Shown in pieces: positions 139 to 9,040 of a DNA stretch of 39,375 nucleotides. Under the pieces are notes generated by a model that saw nothing but the letters and a program-made list of their open reading frames with translations, made no database searches and was not told where the DNA came from. The position numbers and the translations under genes were made by a program. Origin of the DNA: Clostridia bacterium (GTDB taxonomy: Bacteria > Bacillota > Clostridia > Oscillospirales > Acutalibacteraceae); assembly GCA_017436285.1 (NCBI GenBank), contig JAFSDL010000011.1:1-39375 (forward strand), given 5' to 3'. Position 1 is the stretch's first letter. Each line of letters starts with the position of its first letter.

Positions 139-1167
139 TTATACCTGTTCTGCAATATCGTAGATAAGTCTTTCGGTTTTTTCCCAACCGAGACAAGGGT
201 CGGTAATTGATTTACCATAGATACCGTCACCGATTTTCTGGCATCCGTCTTCAATATAGCTTTCAATCATAATACCCTTAACAAGCTTTTTGATATCATC
301 GTTATGATTTCTGCTATAAAGAATATCCTTGGAAATACGGATTTGTTCGAGATATTTTTTGCCTGAGTTAGCGTGGTTCGCATCAACAATGCACGAAGGA
401 TTTTTAAGTCCTGATTTTGCATACGCATCATAAAGATTCAACAAATCCTCATAGTGATAGTTAGAAATGTTATGACCATCTCTGTCAACAAAGCCTCTCA
501 TAATAGCGTGTGCATAGGGGTTGCCGTCGCTTTCAACCTCCCATCCTCTGTAAAGGAAGGTGTGACTGCTCTGTGCAGCAGTGATAGCATTCATCATAAC
601 AGAAATATCGCCACCTGTGGGGTTTTTCATACCAACAGGAATATCAAAGCCACTTGAAGCAAGTCTGTGCTCCTGATTTTCAACTGAGCGGGCACCGATT
701 GCAACATAGGAAAGCAAGTCGGAAAGGTAACGGAAGTTTGCAGGATAAAGCATTTCATCTGCACATGAGAAGCCATAATCACGAAGAGCGCACATATGCA
801 ATTCACGGATTGAAATGATACCGTGAAGCATATCGGGCTTTTCGTTGGGGTCGGGCTGATGAAGCATACCCTTATAGCCTGCGCCTGTTGTTCTGGGCTT
901 ACCTGTGTAAATACGGGGAACAATAACAATTTTATCCTTTACCTTTTCTCTTACCTCTGCAAGCCTTGAAATATAATCAAGAACAGGCTCCTTTGAATCT
1001 GCAGAGCAGGGTCCGATTACAAGAATAAGCTTATCAGACTCACCTGTGAAAACCTTTTTTATTTCTATATCGTTTCTGTCCTTCTGCTCTGCCATTTTGG
1101 CTGTTAAAGGAAACTGCTCCTTAATCTCCATTGGAATGGGAAGCTTTCTTTTGAAATTCATACTCAT
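139..1167 (-). CDS. aroF: 3-deoxy-7-phosphoheptulonate synthase, type I (AroFGH class)
   Basis: Condenses phosphoenolpyruvate and erythrose 4-phosphate to DAHP, the committed cytosolic step of the shikimate pathway. The 342-residue length suits the AroF/G/H (type I-alpha) class. GPCSAD is at residues 52-57 and the substrate-binding KPRTTGAGYKG segment at 90-100; DANHANSGKK lies further on. The ATG at 1167 follows AGGAG by 9 bases. It is the last gene of the aromatic operon, 19 bp after aroA. Its place under a Tyr/Phe leader is consistent with end-product control. Enzymes of this class are usually feedback inhibited, but the sequence alone does not tell me which amino acid acts here. Confidence 0.95.
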   Translation of the reverse strand: MSMNFKRKLPIPMEIKEQFPLTAKMAEQKDRNDIEIKKVFTGESDKLILVIGPCSADSKEPVLDYISRLAEVREKVKDKIVIVPRIYTGKPRTTGAGYKGMLHQPDPNEKPDMLHGIISIRELHMCALRDYGFSCADEMLYPANFRYLSDLLSYVAIGARSVENQEHRLASSGFDIPVGMKNPTGGDISVMMNAITAAQSSHTFLYRGWEVESDGNPYAHAIMRGFVDRDGHNISNYHYEDLLNLYDAYAKSGLKNPSCIVDANHANSGKKYLEQIRISKDILYSRNHNDDIKKLVKGIMIESYIEDGCQKIGDGIYGKSITDPCLGWEKTERLIYDIAEQV

Positions 1168-1186
1168 TTTTAATTTCTCCTATCTT

Positions 1187-2392
1187 TTATGTGATATCAT
1201 ATTGTATGCCCAGGGTTTTGATATCATCAAAAAACTCAGGGTAACTTTTATTAACACATTGGGCGTTTTCAAGTGTTCCGCCCACCTTACTGCACAAAAT
1301 TGCAAGCGACATTGCAATTCTGTGGTCATTGTGACAATTCAGACTCAGGGTTGGTGCTTTTATTTCACTCTCAGGAATGATTATTTCATCATCATTTACG
1401 ATTATTTCAACACCGAATTTTGAAAGCTCTGCCTTCATAGCCTCTGCTCTGTCACTCTCTTTAATTTTCAGGCGCTTTGTACCTATCAGCCTTGCACCAT
1501 TACATAGGGTGGCACAAGCCATAAGCACAGGACCTAAATCGGGACAATCTGTAATATCAAGAGTTGGTGTGCCTGCTTTTAATTCTTCAAAGAACTGTAT
1601 GTAAGCCTTGTCACCCTGATAGCTTGCTTCATTCATTCCGTTAACCTTTACATTTCCGCCTATAAGGTTAAAGGCATCAAGGAATGCAGAGTTGGACCAA
1701 TCCCCCTCAACAGAAGTGCTTTGGGGTAAATACTTTTGATTACCCTTTATATAAAAGCTTTTATCTGTTTTTCTGATTTCAACACCAAACCGGGATAAAA
1801 CATCAATTGTTATATCAACATAAGGTGCGCTCTGAAGGGGTGTTGTGAGAATAATTTGGCTATCACCCTCTAAAAGCGGAAGAGTGAAGAAAAGCCCCGT
1901 AAGAAACTGACTGCTTACATCACCACGTATTTTATATGCACCGCTTTTAAGTTCACCGCCTGCTTCAAGGCATTTTTCAGTTTTTTTGAGGTAACAACCC
2001 ATTTCACCGAAAAGCTCCTCATAAACGCTCTGAGGGCGTTCTAAAAGCCTTGGGCTACCACTAAAGGAGACTGTTTTTGAAAACAACAGGCTCAAAGGAA
2101 TTAAAAATCTCAAGGTGCTTCCGCTTTCGTTACAAAAAAGGTTAATGCACTCTTTTTTCCTTTTTATATCTATTCCGTAAACAACAGCTTTGTTGCCTTT
2201 GGTTTCTATATTTGCACCTAATTCCTTCAGGCAGGAAATTGTTGCAATAATATCATCATTGGTTCCGATATTATCAATTACACTTTTCCCTTCTGAAAGA
2301 GAGGCACATATAAGAAGCCTGTGAGCACAGCTTTTTGATGGTGGTGCATTTATTTCACCAGTAGCCACACTCGGTTTTATTGTGACATTCAT
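1187..2392 (-). CDS. aroA: 3-phosphoshikimate 1-carboxyvinyltransferase (EPSP synthase)
   Basis: Transfers the enolpyruvyl group of PEP to shikimate 3-phosphate, the sixth step of the shikimate pathway. The 401 residues form the usual two-domain enzyme. PPSKS at 17-21 supplies the N-terminal lysine and serine that bind substrate. NESGSTLRF at 88-96 is the family's first signature, DCPDLGPVL sits in the C-terminal half, and the KESDRAEAM and HNDHRIAMS segments follow. The start overlaps the aroQ stop by 4 bp (ATGA), which implies translational coupling. An EPSPS signature normally reads LFLGNAGTA in class I enzymes; this protein's NESGSTLRF is closer to divergent Firmicutes forms. Confidence 0.95.
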   Translation of the reverse strand: MNVTIKPSVATGEINAPPSKSCAHRLLICASLSEGKSVIDNIGTNDDIIATISCLKELGANIETKGNKAVVYGIDIKRKKECINLFCNESGSTLRFLIPLSLLFSKTVSFSGSPRLLERPQSVYEELFGEMGCYLKKTEKCLEAGGELKSGAYKIRGDVSSQFLTGLFFTLPLLEGDSQIILTTPLQSAPYVDITIDVLSRFGVEIRKTDKSFYIKGNQKYLPQSTSVEGDWSNSAFLDAFNLIGGNVKVNGMNEASYQGDKAYIQFFEELKAGTPTLDITDCPDLGPVLMACATLCNGARLIGTKRLKIKESDRAEAMKAELSKFGVEIIVNDDEIIIPESEIKAPTLSLNCHNDHRIAMSLAILCSKVGGTLENAQCVNKSYPEFFDDIKTLGIQYDIT

Positions 2393-2823
2393 TCTGCCAC
2401 CCTCTTTATTAAAGCATCAATTGCAAGAAGATATCCGTCAGTACCCTTTCCGCTTATTGTTTCAAAGCAGGCATTTCTTACATAGCTTATTTTTCTGAAT
2501 TCCTCACGGGAATCAACATCGGAAATATGAACCTCAACCGCAGGAATATTAACCGCCTTCAAGGCATCTAAAATTGCAATGCTTGTGTGAGTATAAGCAC
2601 CGGGGTTTATAACAATTCCGTCACAAACACCAAACGCCTTCTGAATCGCATCCACCAAATCGCCCTCGTGATTTGACTGATAGCAATTCACATCTATGCT
2701 TTTATCTTTAGCATAACCTTCAATTTTTTCAACAAGAGAATTATATGTTTCCTTGCCGTAGATATCAGGCTCTCTTATACCGAGCATATTAAGATTTGGT
2801 CCGTTAATTACAAGAATATTCAT
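2389..2823 (-). CDS. aroQ: 3-dehydroquinate dehydratase, type II
   Basis: Dehydrates 3-dehydroquinate to 3-dehydroshikimate. The 144-residue length and the motifs identify the small dodecameric type II class, unrelated to type I AroD. NGPNLNMLG is at 7-15, the catalytic tyrosine is at about 22, NPGAYTHTS spans 73-81 and EVHISDV has its catalytic histidine at 99. It starts inside the 3' end of aroE-aroK, with a 20-bp overlap, and its stop overlaps the aroA start by 4 bp. The three genes are therefore tightly packed and probably translationally coupled. Confidence 0.96.
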   Translation of the reverse strand: MNILVINGPNLNMLGIREPDIYGKETYNSLVEKIEGYAKDKSIDVNCYQSNHEGDLVDAIQKAFGVCDGIVINPGAYTHTSIAILDALKAVNIPAVEVHISDVDSREEFRKISYVRNACFETISGKGTDGYLLAIDALIKRVAE

Positions 2824-4054
2824 AATAATCCTCCTCTATTATTTTTGCAACCTCTTCAACTGCTTTTGAGCCATCAACCACAACATCCGCGCAAGCCTTA
2901 TAAAGCTCATATCTTTCATTATATCGCTTTTCTAAATCTGCTCTGTTGCTTGAAAGAGGTCTGTCGAAAGTGGTTATGAGCATTTCCAAGGGTCTGTCAA
3001 GGAAATAAATTCTTGAATTACCTTTCAGATTTTCTATATTTTCGGGATTAAGAATCGCTCCCCCACCTGTTGAAATCACCTGAGAATTCAACATTGAAAT
3101 GTCCTTTATAACATTTTTTTCAACATTCCTGAAATAACCCTCACCCTCTTGTGAGAATATTTCAGGGATGGTTCTGTCTTCTCTTTTAACAATTTCTTCG
3201 TCACTGTCAACAAAAGCCTTATTAAGCCTTTGGCAAAGCACCTTGCCCACGCTTGTTTTTCCGCTTGCGGGCATACCCACAAGAGCGATATTCATTTTCT
3301 GCTTATAAAGGTTTTGGAAAATCTCCTCAACCTTGTTATTATCAACAGGTGCATCAATAAACCTTTCAACTGCGTATGCCGCCTGAGAAACAAGCATATA
3401 AAGTCCGCCCACTGCGGTTATATTTCTATTTTTTGCGTCAAGAATAAGCTTTGATTTTAACGGATTATAAACCGCATCAAAAACCGCTTCAATCTTAGGA
3501 AGCTTGTTTAAATCAACTGCAGAAGCACCCGGGTTGGGATACATTCCGCAAGGAGTTGTGTTAATTATAATTTCGCAGTTGCTATATTTCTCATAAAGCT
3601 CGTTATATGTGATATAACCATCTTTTTTGTTTCTGGAAACCTTTAAAACTGCTTGAGCTTCCATATAATTTGCTACTGCAAAAGCGGTATTTGATGTTCC
3701 GCCGCTACCTAAAACAATAACCTTTTTCCCCTTTAAAGAAACATTTTCTTTTTCTATAAGGGCTTTAAGTCCGTAAAAATCCGTATTATAGCCGTAAAGC
3801 TTACCGCTTTTATTAACAATTGTATTTACTGCGTTAATCGATTTGGCTTCATCAGAAATCCAATCAAGATATTCTATAACATCCTGCTTATAAGGAATTG
3901 TTACATTTATTGCTTTAAAATCCTTGTTTTTGAAAAATTCAGGTAACTCTTCCCTTTTCAGTTCTTTTAAGGAATACTCATATTCCGCAAGAGCATTATG
4001 AATTTCCTTTGAAAAGCTATGCCCTAATTTTTCACCGATACAACCATATTCCAT
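2804..4054 (-). CDS. Shikimate dehydrogenase - shikimate kinase fusion (AroE-AroK)
   Basis: One 416-residue frame carries two consecutive shikimate enzymes. Residues 1 to about 250 are shikimate dehydrogenase (3-dehydroshikimate to shikimate): GHSFSK at 11-16, NVTIPYK with the catalytic Lys56, and the NADP-binding GSGGTS at 116-121. Residues 254-416 are shikimate kinase (shikimate to shikimate 3-phosphate): P-loop GMPASGKT at 260-267, DSDEE at 283-287 and the substrate-binding GGG at 330-332. Each half is close to the normal length of its free-standing enzyme. No stop, frameshift or long linker lies between them, so this is a real fusion. Its start shares one base with the aroC stop (TAATG), and its 3' end overlaps aroQ by 20 bp. 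Confidence 0.95.
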   Translation of the reverse strand: MEYGCIGEKLGHSFSKEIHNALAEYEYSLKELKREELPEFFKNKDFKAINVTIPYKQDVIEYLDWISDEAKSINAVNTIVNKSGKLYGYNTDFYGLKALIEKENVSLKGKKVIVLGSGGTSNTAFAVANYMEAQAVLKVSRNKKDGYITYNELYEKYSNCEIIINTTPCGMYPNPGASAVDLNKLPKIEAVFDAVYNPLKSKLILDAKNRNITAVGGLYMLVSQAAYAVERFIDAPVDNNKVEEIFQNLYKQKMNIALVGMPASGKTSVGKVLCQRLNKAFVDSDEEIVKREDRTIPEIFSQEGEGYFRNVEKNVIKDISMLNSQVISTGGGAILNPENIENLKGNSRIYFLDRPLEMLITTFDRPLSSNRADLEKRYNERYELYKACADVVVDGSKAVEEVAKIIEEDYYEYSCN

Positions 4055-5148
4055 TAATTATCACCAAGCCAATCGGTACCGAATTTTTGTGATAATAAAT
4101 CGCACAAGGCAAGTGCGGTTATGCTATCAACAACAACTCTTGCTCTGTGAACAATGCAAGGGTCGTGCCTGCCGTTAACACTTAATGTTGTGTTTTCTTT
4201 TTTAATAAAATCAACAGTTTCCTGCTCCTTTGATATTGAAGGAGTGGGCTTTATTGCACATCTGAAAATAACAGGCATACCATTTGTTATGCCACCGTTA
4301 ATACCGCCATTATTATTGGTTTTGGTTGTGATTTTTCCATCTGTAACAGTAAAGCAATCATTCATTTTGCTACCCAACATATCTGCACAGGAAAAGCCTG
4401 CACCAAACTCAACGCCCTTGACTGCAGGAATTGAGAAAAGAGCGTGAGAAATAACGCTTTCAACAGAATCAAACCAAGGCTCACCGACACCAACGGGCAA
4501 TCCGATTACTGCAGTTTCAAGAATACCGCCTACGCTATCACCCTGCGCACCTGCATTTTCAATATTTTTTATCATCTGCCCGCCCTTTTCATCATTGAGA
4601 ACTGCAAACATTTTATCAGAAAGAGTATTTATATTGCTTTCGTATTCTGTAAAGCTATCATCCTCAACACCCGCACATTTTGAAATATGAGTGCCAATTT
4701 TTACGCCTTTTTTCGAAAGCAAATCAATAGCAATTGCACCTGCCGCAACAAGACCTGCGGTAATCCTTCCGCTGAAATGACCGCCACCGCGATAATCCTC
4801 GCAACCATTATACTTGCAAAAAGCAGTATAATCCGCGTGCCCCGGTCTTGCTTTGCCATAAGTTTTTGAATAATCCTTGGACTGTGTGTTTTCGTTGGGA
4901 ATTACTATACATATAGGCGTACCTGTTGTTTTACCATTAAAAACACCGCTTACAATATTAAATTTATCTGCTTCCTTGCGAGGTGTTGAAATTTTGCCCA
5001 CGGGTCTTCTCAAATCAAGCTGATGTGAAATAAAATCCTCATTCACACTTATACCTGCAGGTAAGCCATCAACAACAGCACCAATAGCAGTACCGTGACT
5101 TTCTCCGAAGAGAGTTACACTCACATTATTGCCTAAAGTGTTTTTCAC
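4054..5148 (-). CDS. aroC: Chorismate synthase
   Basis: Converts EPSP to chorismate with reduced FMN, the last shikimate-pathway step. The 364 residues match the family. GESHG is at 15-19, RRPVGKISTPRKEAD runs from about 48, GARPGHADYT and DYRGGGHFSGR form the FMN and substrate-binding core, and GRHDPC lies near the C-terminus. The start overlaps the aroB stop by 4 bp (ATGA) and the stop shares a base with the next start. In Firmicutes the flavin is normally supplied reduced by a partner enzyme; I see no flavin reductase domain or gene nearby. Confidence 0.97.
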   Translation of the reverse strand: MKNTLGNNVSVTLFGESHGTAIGAVVDGLPAGISVNEDFISHQLDLRRPVGKISTPRKEADKFNIVSGVFNGKTTGTPICIVIPNENTQSKDYSKTYGKARPGHADYTAFCKYNGCEDYRGGGHFSGRITAGLVAAGAIAIDLLSKKGVKIGTHISKCAGVEDDSFTEYESNINTLSDKMFAVLNDEKGGQMIKNIENAGAQGDSVGGILETAVIGLPVGVGEPWFDSVESVISHALFSIPAVKGVEFGAGFSCADMLGSKMNDCFTVTDGKITTKTNNNGGINGGITNGMPVIFRCAIKPTPSISKEQETVDFIKKENTTLSVNGRHDPCIVHRARVVVDSITALALCDLLSQKFGTDWLGDN

Positions 5149-6158
5149 TCTGAATACGCCTCCTTTACCAATTTATCTAATTCAGGAAATGTTAAAAACT
5201 TAAATTCAAAGCTACCGATTTTCTCAACAAACACAACATTCACTCCGTTGCCCTTTGCCTTTTTATCGTGCCGAAGAGCAGTCAGTATTTCATCTGGCGA
5301 AAAGCCGAATTTTATTGGTAAATTATATTTTGTTAAAACATTTATAAGTCTTTCTCTTACACTCTCAGAACAGAATGCCAACATACCCATTGAAACACAT
5401 TCACCGTGAAGATAGTCAGAAAGACCTGCGGCAGTTTCTATTGCGTGACCTGCAGTGTGACCAAAATTGAGAACCTTACGAAGACCAAGCTCCTTTTCAT
5501 CCTCTTCCACAACCGCTTTCTTGATTTTCAAAGAGCGCTCAATGACTGTATCAATAATGTCCTCTGCATTGTTACCTTCAATAAGCTCAAAAAGCTCTTT
5601 ATCACTTGTTGCAGCCATTTTAACGCTTTCCGCCAAGCCATTATTGAACTGCCTTTTTGAAAGGGTTTTCAAAACATCCGGGTCTATAATAACTGCCTTT
5701 GGTTGATAAAAGGCACCAACAGTATTTTTGTAGCCACCAAAATCGATAGCGGTTTTTCCGCCTATTGAGGAATCCACCTGAGAAAGAAGTGTTGTGGGTA
5801 TATTGATAAAATCAACGCCTCGCATATAGGTTGCGGCAGTAAAGCCTGAAAGGTCGCCAACAACACCGCCACCAACTGCAACTATGCAATCTGCTCTTGA
5901 AAATGCATTTTCATTCAACACCTCAAGAAGCTCCTTATATGTATCAAAGGATTTGCTTTTTTCTCCCTGAGGAATAACCTTGACTACAGCCTCTTTAAAC
6001 TGCTTCGAAACCGCTTCGGCATATTGGAACGGTACACCGCTATCTGTTACTATAAGTGCTTTTTTATCAGTATTACAATACTCGGAAAGAGTGCTTATTG
6101 CGCCTCTTTCAATTGTTATATTGTAATCACCCATTGATGTTTTAACTGTTAATTTCAT
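5145..6158 (-). CDS. aroB: 3-dehydroquinate synthase
   Basis: Cyclises DAHP to 3-dehydroquinate with catalytic NAD and a divalent metal. The 337-residue length is typical. GEKSKSF at 65-71 and GGGVVGD at 96-102 bind NAD. PTTLLSQVDSSIGGKTA from residue 121 binds substrate. The metal ligands are the glutamate in GLAESVK and the histidines in NFGHTAGH and HGECVSMGM. The gene lies 4 bp after pheA and overlaps aroC by 4 bp, in the middle of the aromatic operon. Confidence 0.96.
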   Translation of the reverse strand: MKLTVKTSMGDYNITIERGAISTLSEYCNTDKKALIVTDSGVPFQYAEAVSKQFKEAVVKVIPQGEKSKSFDTYKELLEVLNENAFSRADCIVAVGGGVVGDLSGFTAATYMRGVDFINIPTTLLSQVDSSIGGKTAIDFGGYKNTVGAFYQPKAVIIDPDVLKTLSKRQFNNGLAESVKMAATSDKELFELIEGNNAEDIIDTVIERSLKIKKAVVEEDEKELGLRKVLNFGHTAGHAIETAAGLSDYLHGECVSMGMLAFCSESVRERLINVLTKYNLPIKFGFSPDEILTALRHDKKAKGNGVNVVFVEKIGSFEFKFLTFPELDKLVKEAYSE

Positions 6159-6162
6159 AACT

Positions 6163-7263
6163 TTATATACTCTGCTCTTTTCCGTATCTGCCTACAAGGC
6201 GCACGTTTGTGCAAACCTCTGACAGTTTTTCCAACATATTTTTTTCATCTTCATTTGAAAGCTTACCCTCACCCTCAAGGAAAAAATAATAATTCCATAT
6301 AACATCCTTTGAGGGACGGCTTTTTAAGGCTTTCAGGTTATATCCGCAATCACCGAAAACAGAAATCGCTTTACTTAATGAGCCCGCCTCGTCACGAACA
6401 GTAAAAAGAACAATGAAGTTCTCATCGCCCATTGATTCGCCCCTTGGAATTCGGGAGAATACTGCAAAGCGGGTTGTGTTCTTGCTATCCTTATTGATTT
6501 TGCGGTCAATGAGCTTAAGACCATATTCGTGACCTGCTTCAAGGCTACAAATAACACCAACAGACGCATCCCCATTTTGTGAAACCGCTTGAGCTGCAAG
6601 GGCGGTATTAACTGCCTCCTCTGTTTCCAGGCCTCTTTCGGAAATATATTCCGCACACTGACCTAATGCCTGAGGATGACTGATAACCCTTTTAATAGTG
6701 TTTCTGTGAGAATCAGGTGTACCGAAAAGGTGCTGCTCAACCGCCATATCATAAACACCATTAATGAAAAGAGAGCCGAAATAGGTTAAATCCATAACTC
6801 TTGCAACATCACCCTCATAGCTGTTTTCAATAGGCAGAACCGCACATTCACAATCGCCGTTTTCAACCGCCTTATAAGCAGATTTAAAATCGGAGAATGC
6901 AACAGGCTTACCGTCGGGGAAAATGCGCTTAACTGCAATTTCTGCAAAGGCACCCTTAACTCCTGAAAAAGCAATCCTCGTTCCGTCAAGAATTTTGTGT
7001 TGAAAATCCTTGGACAAATCCATAGTTTTTTTCTGAAAGTTTATGTAATATGAGCGGATTTCATCATCAGAAATCAATGCGCTGTTTTTTTCGAGAAGTG
7101 CAGCTTCTCTCACAGTATCTTCAACAGGAACACCATTTACCTTTTTATATTCGGCAACATCCTTGACTGCTTCCATTCTCTTTTCAAAAAGAACTGCAAT
7201 CTCCTTATCAATATCACCGATTGTTTTTCTGGCGTTCTGAAACTTAATTTCGTAATCAGTCAT
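6163..7263 (-). CDS. pheA: Bifunctional chorismate mutase / prephenate dehydratase (P-protein)
   Basis: Converts chorismate to prephenate and then to phenylpyruvate, the phenylalanine branch. The start at 7263 gives 366 residues: GAGGA lies 8 bases upstream and the start overlaps the aminotransferase stop by 8 bp. A longer frame from 7326 lacks a good ribosome site. The mutase domain spans about 1-88 and the dehydratase about 96-270, with TRF at 264-266. The ACT domain spans about 280-366. In the ACT domain the usual ESRP phenylalanine-binding motif reads KSRP (314-317) and GALV reads GSLS (294-297). The charge change suggests altered feedback inhibition; this is inference. Confidence 0.94.
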   Translation of the reverse strand: MTDYEIKFQNARKTIGDIDKEIAVLFEKRMEAVKDVAEYKKVNGVPVEDTVREAALLEKNSALISDDEIRSYYINFQKKTMDLSKDFQHKILDGTRIAFSGVKGAFAEIAVKRIFPDGKPVAFSDFKSAYKAVENGDCECAVLPIENSYEGDVARVMDLTYFGSLFINGVYDMAVEQHLFGTPDSHRNTIKRVISHPQALGQCAEYISERGLETEEAVNTALAAQAVSQNGDASVGVICSLEAGHEYGLKLIDRKINKDSKNTTRFAVFSRIPRGESMGDENFIVLFTVRDEAGSLSKAISVFGDCGYNLKALKSRPSKDVIWNYYFFLEGEGKLSNEDEKNMLEKLSEVCTNVRLVGRYGKEQSI

Positions 7264-8446
7264 TTTTATAATCCTCGTAAAGTGATTTAAAAGCCGGTAT
7301 TGAGCGTTCAATAAGCTCTGTATCAACGCAATAGGAAATTCTTACAAAGCCTTCAACACCAAAAGAATCGCTCGGCACAAGAAGAAGCTCGAATTTCTTT
7401 GCTCTTTCATAGAATTTATTTGCATCCTCTTCAAGTGCTTTTACAAACATATAGAATGCGCCATCGGGCTTAATAACTGTATAGCCGATTTCTGTGAGAG
7501 CATCATAAAGAATTTTTCTGTTTTTCTCATATATGGAAATATCTGCAGTATCCTCAAGGCACTCTGAAATTGTATATTGCATAAGGCTTGGTGCACAAAC
7601 ATAGCCCAGGGCTCTTCCTGAGCCACAGATTGCTGCATACACATCCCCAGCATCCTTCATATCAGGTGAAACAAAGATATAACCTATGCGCTCACCGGGT
7701 AATGAAAGAGCTTTACTGTATGAATAGCAAACGAAGGTGTTGTTGTAATAGCAAGGAATATAGGGAACCATTTCACCTGTGAAAACAAGTTCTCTGTAGG
7801 GCTCATCAGATATAACAAAAATCTCTTTATTATATTCCTTTTGCTTTTCTTTAAGTAAATCAGTTAAAGCGATTACATCCTTTTCAGGAATAATAACACC
7901 CGAGGGGTTATTGGGAGAATTCACTATGATTGCTTTTGTGTTGGGGGTAATTGCTTTTTCAAGGGCATCGAAATCAATCTGCAAATCCTCTTTTTTGCAG
8001 GCAACAACAACTAATTTTGCACCTGCCTGCTCTGCAAAAACTCTGTATTCGGGGAAAAACGGTGCAAGGGCAATAACCTCATCACCATCTTCAACAATTG
8101 CATTAAGCGTAATTGTAAGAGAGGCTGCCGCACCACAGGTCATATAAATAAGACCTGCATTTGCTTTAACACCGAATTTATTATTTATGTATTCTGCTAT
8201 TTTATTTCTGACATTCAAATCACCGGGAGCAGATGTGTAGCCGTGAAGAAGCTCTGCGGGAGTTTCTGCAATAAGCTTATTCATAACATCAGTAACCTTC
8301 TGAGGTGCGGGAACGCTTGGGTTACCCAAGCTGAAATCAAAAACATTTTCTGCTCCTATTTCAGCCTTTCTCTTTTTACCATACTCAAAAATCTCACGGA
8401 TTATTGAGCTTTTTTTACCTAATTGCATCATTTTTTCTGAAATCAT
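7256..8446 (-). CDS. PLP-dependent class I/II aminotransferase, probably aromatic
   Basis: A 396-residue fold-type I aminotransferase. NSPNNPSG is at 176-183 and SDEPY at 213-217. Lys245 in SYSKALSLPGERIGY is the expected Schiff-base lysine. It is the first structural gene of the aromatic operon, directly after the Tyr/Phe attenuator and overlapping pheA. Context therefore points to transamination of phenylpyruvate and 4-hydroxyphenylpyruvate. Sequence alone cannot exclude aspartate or another acceptor, so no symbol is given. AAGGA lies 9 bases before the ATG at 8446. Confidence 0.9.
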   Translation of the reverse strand: MISEKMMQLGKKSSIIREIFEYGKKRKAEIGAENVFDFSLGNPSVPAPQKVTDVMNKLIAETPAELLHGYTSAPGDLNVRNKIAEYINNKFGVKANAGLIYMTCGAAASLTITLNAIVEDGDEVIALAPFFPEYRVFAEQAGAKLVVVACKKEDLQIDFDALEKAITPNTKAIIVNSPNNPSGVIIPEKDVIALTDLLKEKQKEYNKEIFVISDEPYRELVFTGEMVPYIPCYYNNTFVCYSYSKALSLPGERIGYIFVSPDMKDAGDVYAAICGSGRALGYVCAPSLMQYTISECLEDTADISIYEKNRKILYDALTEIGYTVIKPDGAFYMFVKALEEDANKFYERAKKFELLLVPSDSFGVEGFVRISYCVDTELIERSIPAFKSLYEDYKND

Positions 8447-8468
8447 TGTTTAAATCCTTTCTGAAATG

Positions 8469-8522
8469 AAAAATCCGCAAACCGTTATGTTTTAAACATA
8501 GCAGAATGCGGACTGTCTATAC
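8469..8522 (-). terminator. Attenuator terminator with competing antiterminator arm
   Basis: On the minus strand TCCGCA (8512-8507) pairs with TGCGGA (8479-8474). Inside are a CTG/CGG step and a TATG/CATA step separated by small symmetric internal loops, and five U residues follow (8473-8469). Residues 8522-8509 (GTAT then AGACAGTCCG) can instead pair with 8570-8555. That alternative uses the first four bases of the terminator's 5' arm, so the two folds exclude each other. The terminator ends 22 bases before the aminotransferase ATG. Confidence 0.75.
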
Positions 8523-8535
8523 ACTTTTGTTGCAA

Positions 8536-8613
8536 TCACTTGCAAATCTGAGTGGTATGAAGACAATCCGTGTTATTATAATAAAATCGATAGTATTCAT
8601 AACTACGGAACAT
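8536..8613 (-). CDS. Tyr/Phe-rich leader peptide of the aromatic operon
   Basis: A 25-codon ORF (ATG 8613, TGA 8536) sits between the operon promoter and its attenuator. GAGAGG lies about 8 bases upstream of the ATG. The peptide begins MFRSYEYYRFYYNNT: Tyr at positions 5, 7, 8, 11 and 12 and Phe at 2 and 10, which is 7 of the first 12 residues. The antiterminator's first segment (8570-8555) lies within codons 15-20, just past the Tyr/Phe run. The stop codon falls in the loop of a small hairpin (TTGCAA - GTGA - TTGCAA). Such placement is diagnostic of transcription attenuation by ribosome stalling at scarce charged tRNA. No T-box consensus is present. Confidence 0.8.
   Translation of the reverse strand: MFRSYEYYRFYYNNTDCLHTTQICK
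8555..8570 (-). promoter_or_regulatory. Antiterminator segment 2
   Basis: CGGATTGTCT, then a two-base bulge (TC), then ATAC on the minus strand. It complements GTAT-AGACAGTCCG at 8522-8509 over 14 base pairs, with one G-U pair. It lies immediately after the Tyr/Phe codons of the leader peptide, so ribosome position can decide whether it is free to pair. Confidence 0.65.
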
Positions 8614-8647
8614 CCTAAACACCTCTCAAATAAAAATTATGCTACTC

Positions 8648-8676
8648 ATTTTACTCCTGCAAATCGGCTTTGTCAA
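8648..8676 (-). promoter_or_regulatory. Promoter of the aromatic operon
   Basis: A perfect -35 TTGACA (8676-8671), a 17-bp spacer and a -10 TAAAAT (8653-8648) on the minus strand. Transcription would begin near 8641, giving a leader of about 195 bases that holds the leader peptide and the attenuator. The upstream membrane-protein gene ends only 32 bp before the -35. Confidence 0.85.
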
Positions 8677-8707
8677 GAGAAAAAACAACATAAAATGGTA
8701 TATTTAT

Positions 8708-9040
8708 TCATTTATTTTCATATTTTTCCACAATTTCTGCAAAACCATAAATTAAAGCGGAAATCAAGCGGGAAACCAACACCATAATAACCACAACACA
8801 AACAATGGGCACAATAAGAAGTGTCATCATCTGTGTTCCCACATAAACGCCGATTAAAACAACACCTACAGCTGCCGCAACAAGTGTTATAAACAAGTTC
8901 ATTACAAATATAATTAATGAAAATTTCTTTAATGTTGCAGAGCAATTTTTAAAAAATTTGAAATCTATGGCAATTTTTTCGTTAACTAACTCAACTTCAG
9001 GAGCAGGATTTATATTTTTAGTTTTACTTTTCTTAAACAT
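8708..9040 (-). CDS. Small membrane protein, two predicted helices, function unknown
   Basis: 110 residues from the ATG at 9040, preceded by AGAGGTG; a longer reading from 9061 would run through that ribosome site. The N-terminal third is charged and soluble (many Lys), followed by two hydrophobic helices at about 42-66 and 70-92 and a short charged C-terminus. I do not recognise a family. It is 11 bp downstream of the lipoprotein gene and probably co-transcribed with it and the HAD phosphatase. The pair could form a membrane-associated unit, but nothing in the sequence shows a function. Confidence 0.7.
   Translation of the reverse strand: MFKKSKTKNINPAPEVELVNEKIAIDFKFFKNCSATLKKFSLIIFVMNLFITLVAAAVGVVLIGVYVGTQMMTLLIVPIVCVVVIMVLVSRLISALIYGFAEIVEKYENK

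Follow-up and report, generated by a model that had tools for sequence, protein, structure and literature searches.

How does a clostridial bacterium adjust the transcription of an operon that makes aromatic amino acids? The window analysed here, a single contig (C3) of 39,375 nucleotides from a 2.05-Mb Clostridia genome that is 83.7% complete, carries on its minus strand an operon of eight genes, namely an aminotransferase, pheA, aroB, aroC, an aroE-aroK fusion, aroQ, aroA and aroF. In Clostridia, genes of this sort are usually controlled by T-boxes. A preliminary description, made from the letters of the window, had proposed a Tyr/Phe leader-peptide attenuator ahead of this operon, and the eight-gene extent that it gave, up to aroF, agrees with our protein matches. 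The elements of the leader and the genes that follow are, in the direction of transcription:

8676-8648, minus strand: sigma-70-type promoter, TTGACA at 8676-8671, a 17-nt spacer and TAAAAT at 8653-8648 (11 of 12 consensus bases).
8620-8627, minus strand: Shine-Dalgarno (SD) sequence GAGAGGTG of the leader ORF, six nt upstream of it (sequence).
8613-8536, minus strand: leader peptide ORF MFRSYEYYRFYYNNTDCLHTTQICK, 25 codons, with the stop codon UGA at 8538-8536 (sequence, conservation).
8578-8601, minus strand: putative control codons Tyr5, Tyr7, Tyr8, Phe10, Tyr11 and Tyr12, with CGA (Arg9) at 8589-8587 (stall model, positional conservation).
8569-8555, minus strand: antiterminator 5' arm GGATTGTCT..ATAC, within codons 15-20 (covariation, fold).
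8530-8545, minus strand: inner hairpin of the antiterminator, TTGCAA-GTGA-TTGCAA, with the leader stop codon in its loop (fold).
8522-8510, minus strand: antiterminator 3' arm GTATAGACAGTCC, overlapping the terminator 5' arm at 8512-8510 (covariation, fold).
8512-8469, minus strand: intrinsic terminator TCCGCA..TGCGGA, with upper stem TATGTT/AACATA and U5 at 8473-8469 (fold, covariation).
7256-8446, minus strand: class I/II aminotransferase (PRK06836 family), the first regulated gene (NCBIfam NF005305, 554.9 bits, cut-off 376).
6163-7326 as the listed ORF, minus strand: pheA, chorismate mutase-prephenate dehydratase (CM-PDT; protein matches).
139-6158, minus strand: aroB, aroC, aroE-aroK fusion, aroQ, aroA and aroF, tightly packed (protein matches).

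These elements very probably form a ribosome-mediated transcription attenuator that senses charged tRNA-Tyr and tRNA-Phe and apparently has no general protector hairpin. In the mechanism that we propose, transcription from the promoter at 8676-8648 would yield a leader mRNA, and a ribosome would translate its short ORF behind the advancing RNA polymerase. When charged tRNA-Tyr or tRNA-Phe is scarce, the ribosome would stall within Tyr5-Tyr11 and leave codons 15-20 free to pair with 8522-8510, which would sequester the terminator 5' arm and let the operon be transcribed. When both charged tRNAs are plentiful, the ribosome would instead enter the antiterminator 5' arm and reach the stop codon in the loop of the inner hairpin, and by advancing it would open the antiterminator so that the terminator at 8512-8469 could form. 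We infer the translation of the leader ORF, the sensing of tRNA and the control of read-through from the parts, conservation, covariation and geometry of the leader, all of which are directly observed.

Within the window, a promoter scan of 8400-8900 returned three promoter-like sites (2.3 in shuffles), among which the site at 8676-8648 ranks best, and TTGAC boxes were read by eye at a comparable position in leader-bearing relatives. The promoter had been called perfect, which is slightly too strong for a near-consensus match. The 25-codon ORF is present as first described, with seven Tyr/Phe among its first 12 residues; among 1224 start/stop combinations (15-40 codons, 39-kb window), no other has at least seven F/Y at these positions, and 20 windows simulated under a Markov-1 model contained one such ORF in all. 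The antiterminator, CGGATTGTCT..ATAC / GTATAGACAGTCCG, has a minimum free energy (MFE) of -20.5 kcal/mol (z about -3.5 relative to dinucleotide shuffles), and the stability of the terminator corresponds to a z of about -7.4 relative to shuffled sequence. The earlier claim that distal codons pair with a segment overlapping the 5' arm of a terminator ending in U5 is matched by the folds at 8569-8555/8522-8510 and 8512-8469. A generic terminator scan did not list the terminator at 8512-8469, probably because its stem contains internal loops.

Relatives reached via the aminotransferase show the same layout with other residues, e.g., MYQSFNRFYYFIKDCLYTAQNCN, MFYSFNKRFYYYTMDCLCTPRKCK and MIRNFKIRFFYFISADCLCAE. 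A covariance model (R1) was built from ten seed leaders on an alignment without the ORF start; it spans the codons from about -6 onward, counted from the antiterminator arm, and the start codon, the SD, the N-terminal residues and the downstream gene lie outside it. In whole-genome searches, R1 matched 35 of 398 genomes of the family at E<=0.1 (30 examined), 31 of 394 of the order at E<=0.01 (30 examined) and 6 of 391 of the class at E<=0.01 (all examined), the three samples overlapping. After strict filters, 30 family loci, 26 new loci from the order, four new loci from the class and L004 made up a set of 61 leaders. An equivalent short ORF of 17-29 codons is found in 61/61 (starts picked by script: ATG 54, GTG 5, TTG 2) and an SD core before the chosen start in 58/61, with none in L088, L089 and L091; this is the short ORF with a ribosome-binding site by which the class is recognised, and its translation is predicted. 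Phe and Tyr account for 402 of the 783 codons ahead of the antiterminator arm, and Trp for 1 of 1381 residues, the codon run thus specifying products of an operon that holds pheA and aro genes. The gene directly after the leader is the aminotransferase in 30, pheA in 17 and aroF in 14 of the 61 (20, 17 and 14, respectively, among the 51 leaders outside the seed). Since this first gene varies and is always aromatic, the leader keeps its place at the head of the operon. The comparison of relatives that had been suggested as a check therefore speaks for the original proposal: the ORF, the Tyr/Phe run, the geometry and both stems are conserved, the stems covary, and all 61 leaders head aromatic genes. 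Conservation, covariation and the stall model described below support the attenuator interpretation, from which a response to Tyr and Phe is predicted.

A second model built from all 61 leaders (R2) matched three of 299 genomes of the phylum at E<=0.1, namely the window's own, that of L119 and that of L120. The locus L119, which is outside both training sets, has an ORF of the same kind (MFKIFNRFYYGKTDFLSTAGCVR) before an aminotransferase. The match at L120, in a different family of the phylum (E 0.043), was rejected as chance, having no aromatic F/Y leader and no operon-protein match within the stretch examined. Also attributed to chance, and uncounted, were R1/R2 matches on the plus strand of the window at 8406-8518 (E 0.017) and 8409-8518 (E 0.29), which lie opposite the end of the leader and the start of the gene. 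The leader of L005 (MNVAVVRFYYCRQSGFSAFAEMR) can be recognised by eye yet is matched by neither R1 nor R2 and stands outside the 61, and prevalence is therefore underestimated. In 19 of the 25 family genomes with the aminotransferase, no leader was found directly before the aminotransferase gene, and at least one of those genomes (G056) has a leader before aroF instead; R1 left one (G397) of seven genus genomes unmatched. The nearest named relatives are metagenome-assembled genomes (Oscillospiraceae/Clostridia), and the record titles of two give deer rectum or cecum as the source. In one leader (L001:3707-4000), about 290 bases separate the terminator from the aminotransferase, and in the other 60 the first aligned gene residue lies 4-88 bases past the model match.

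Counting codons from the antiterminator arm, we observe an F/Y share of 97% at -5, 98% at -4, 93% at -3, 64% at -2 and 7% at -1, with none at 0; these F/Y statistics, like those on CGA below, are partly model-selected from about -6 onward because R1 contains those codons. In our stall model, the ribosome shields 12 nt past the first base of the A-site codon, and four such edges were tried. With the 12-nt edge, the terminator 5' arm is on average sequestered with a probability of 0.93 for stalls no later than -4, of 0.37 for a stall at -3 and of 0.11 for one at -2, and with a 10-nt edge codon -3 gives 0.92. The model thus suggests that codon -4 is the last fully antiterminating stall position, or -3 if the footprint is shorter. 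Under all four edges, the effective positions are enriched in F/Y codons (odds ratios 7 to 16), in part because R1 already contains such codons; this is the placement of control codons expected of the class. The predicted blocking is sharp just after the run and weaker beyond it, codons after about +1 giving intermediate values of ~0.4 at which blocking is not clean. Codon -2 is Phe in 37/61 leaders, always encoded by TTT; a stall there should favour termination, and its presence is unaccounted for by the simple model.

Applied to the window, the stall model predicts that the antiterminator stays free when the ribosome stops at an aromatic codon no later than Tyr11 (8583), that Tyr12 (8580) is borderline, that codons 13-16 block, and that codons 20-22 give values up to 0.75. 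The preliminary description had argued that stalling at the early Tyr codons would free the antiterminator, with which the model agrees for all aromatic codons up to Tyr11. It had further supposed that a stall at the later Tyr pair would partly cover the antiterminator; in the model, Tyr12 is borderline and Tyr11 leaves the arm free. The stall logic that had been left open there appears mostly settled in silico. When the 61 leaders are folded with no ribosome, the terminator arm is sequestered with a probability of 0.82, and by the antiterminator arm with 0.61, the latter being dominant in 40/61 and below 0.5 in 21/61; a general protector (1:2) hairpin was not found in these folds. In trp-type systems, such a hairpin gives termination without translation. 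Most of the present leaders are predicted to read through without a ribosome, and termination therefore seems to need translation. In the folds, the leader stop codon lies wholly within an apical antiterminator loop in 30/61 and overlaps one in 40/61.

A narrower form of the proposal would have the attenuator sense mainly Tyr, the Phe codons being secondary, as might be suggested by the last fully effective codon at the 12-nt edge, -4, which is Tyr in 54/61 leaders and Phe in 6. However, Phe occupies codon -5 in 29/61 and codon -6 in 24/61, the operon contains pheA, and a separate Tyr-only leader precedes tyrA in four congeners, and we regard this narrower form as rather unlikely. The fate of tyrA was followed with PF02153 (TyrA), which is found in 57 of the 60 leader-bearing genomes; in 43 of these 57 it shares contig and strand with the leader and lies 1.3-7.8 kb further downstream, and in 14 it is on another contig. 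The same search of the window's own incomplete genome found none. In the five genus genomes with tyrA, the gene is always on another contig. At four of these five loci (L105-L108), the detached tyrA is preceded by a second leader, MKTNFAVTYYYYYYLVK and its relatives, with six consecutive Tyr, and at the remaining locus (L104, in G057) no second leader was found. In predicted folds, the Tyr run of the tyrA leader pairs with a segment after the stop codon, and this segment can also pair with the terminator, a trp-type arrangement. Three of the four tyrA-leader loci extend upstream into 23S rRNA. Draft assemblies break at such places, and this may explain why the window's genome shows no tyrA locus. 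At the remaining nine loci where tyrA lies on a separate contig, no F/Y-run leader was found within 520 bases before the matched domain; several of the nine follow what appears by eye to be the end of aroA, and are therefore probably contig breaks of the operon.

The pairing on which a sensor of both charged tRNAs would depend was assessed by covariation, counted on a plain MAFFT alignment (A4; 61 sequences, unfitted to structure) whose rows are the R1 matches and on which the helices were set by hand. In the antiterminator, both partners vary in 11 of 12 pairs. Pairing holds in 81.7% of cells, compared with 30-41% when the partner is slid, and 0/500 shuffles, which leave sequence relatedness in, reach any of five measures. 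In the outer terminator stem, 4 of 6 pairs are doubly changed and 93.2% of cells pair; 0/500 shuffles reach the percentage paired, the count of doubly changed cells or the covariation score, and the weaker measures are reached more often (pairs with double changes in 13/500, further pair types in 76/500). The two helices share A4 columns 116-118, and this is the competition between mutually exclusive antiterminator and terminator that characterises the class. A terminator helix drawn by RNAalifold on the first alignment (columns 152-155 with 185-188) was wrong and was discarded. As a separate observation, A4 columns 41/112 in the middle of the antiterminator have no standard pair in 33/61 sequences, 22 of which have C facing A.

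The same covariation bears on a nascent-chain arrest peptide that would respond to a small molecule instead of to tRNA charging. Such a peptide would be in keeping with the conserved Asp-Cys-Leu or Gly-Cys-Pro after the run (D in 44, C in 51 and L in 32 of 61), but this stretch is what the antiterminator 5' arm encodes, and the non-coding 3' arm covaries with that arm, so that RNA pairing can account for the conservation. Within the run, moreover, F and Y occur in free order, unlike the residues of known arrest peptides, and we consider this explanation very improbable. Still less probable is a T-box, riboswitch or protein-binding leader with an incidental ORF: T-boxes often control amino-acid genes in Firmicutes and the window's own genome has nine T-box matches, but Rfam at gathering over the window gave no T-box and no other family, a search of 8440-8720 at E<=5 gave no T-box and only three unrelated sub-threshold matches, and the ORF and SD core are retained as given above with an F/Y codon run that tracks the predicted footprint. 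The T-box matches of the genome (L065-L073, six over the cut-off) precede trpB-like, leuA-like and acyl-CoA ligase-like genes, and the remaining ones, assigned by eye, precede tRNA synthetase-like genes and further ligases; those upstream of acyl-CoA ligases may point to aryl-acid salvage.

We therefore retain an attenuator that responds to both charged tRNAs. Attenuators of this kind, with leader peptides controlling trp, phe and his operons, are classical in enterobacteria. With these, the clostridial leaders share a short ORF with a cognate codon run, an antiterminator and terminator that exclude each other, and a biosynthetic operon downstream; they differ in having no Rfam match, no general protector hairpin in the folds, a mixed Tyr/Phe run and a stop codon that often lies in the antiterminator loop. 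The preliminary description saw no T-box at the leader, as we do, and set the T-boxes usual in Firmicutes against stalling attenuators found mainly elsewhere; the genome does use T-boxes, but leader-peptide attenuators of Firmicutes are already in print. The comparisons that follow draw on parts of the papers cited. A leucine leader-peptide attenuator of ilv-leu in S. aureus, described there with genetic support, is also a case from Firmicutes but concerns branched-chain amino acids, and is likened here by kind, not homology (PMC5794164). His leader peptides of hisS paralogues in bacilli (PMC2965389) and of hisZ in C. difficile and Bacillus species (PMC4833913) likewise stand where Firmicutes usually have T-boxes, and differ in serving histidine and other genes. 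The uORFC-13-1 motif (24 representatives, Acholeplasma and environmental DNA, at least one Phe) shares a Phe-encoding uORF and a terminator before aroF, as far as its description allows comparison (PMC8632094). Stav et al. 2019 report two F/Y uORF candidates before shikimate genes, among five genomes including Clostridium novyi; these share the coding of Phe and Tyr before shikimate genes, again compared by description only, and could be relatives of the Oscillospirales leader family (PMC6429828). The kind of attenuator is already known, and the Phe/Tyr theme is already hinted at in print. In the open-access literature (text only, with subscription papers, figures and supplements outside), we found no report of the leader family in Oscillospirales. 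The present set adds a broad group of Clostridia to the bacteria with leader-peptide attenuation of Phe/Tyr synthesis.

The leaders also differ in codon usage from the genes that they precede. Where an Arg stands immediately ahead of two aromatic codons, CGA is the codon used in 25 of 26 cases, spread over 25 leaders (8589-8587 in the window), compared with 53 of 1075 Arg codons (5%) in the downstream genes, and TTT makes up 0.83 of the Phe codons in the leaders and 0.56 in the downstream genes. Because the 25 CGA leaders span several families of the order and class samples, common descent alone would seem a poor explanation, although R1 itself contains the CGA columns. A slow CGA codon in the effective zone could set the basal level of read-through.

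A joint reading of these results, which we offer tentatively, would make the leaders an old, undescribed family of aromatic attenuators in Oscillospirales and a few neighbouring Clostridia: protectorless, with Tyr at the last antiterminating position and a stop codon that falls in the loop of the antiterminator, and with the rare CGA ahead of the run serving to pause the ribosome. Within the window's genus, this family would have split into a protectorless Phe/Tyr attenuator of the aro-phe operon and a trp-type six-Tyr attenuator of the detached tyrA. Such a split within one genus would offer a natural experiment on what becomes of an attenuator's wiring once one of the enzymes has moved out of the operon. 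The 61 natural variants, with their near-fixed geometry, suggest the codon position that a stalled ribosome must take, and allow the footprint, the choice of codons and the requirement for a protector hairpin to be tested directly.

Two minor observations concern the genes downstream. The true start of pheA probably lies inside the listed ORF at 6163-7326. At 2804-4054 of the window, a single protein fuses aroE and aroK, i.e., shikimate dehydrogenase and shikimate kinase.
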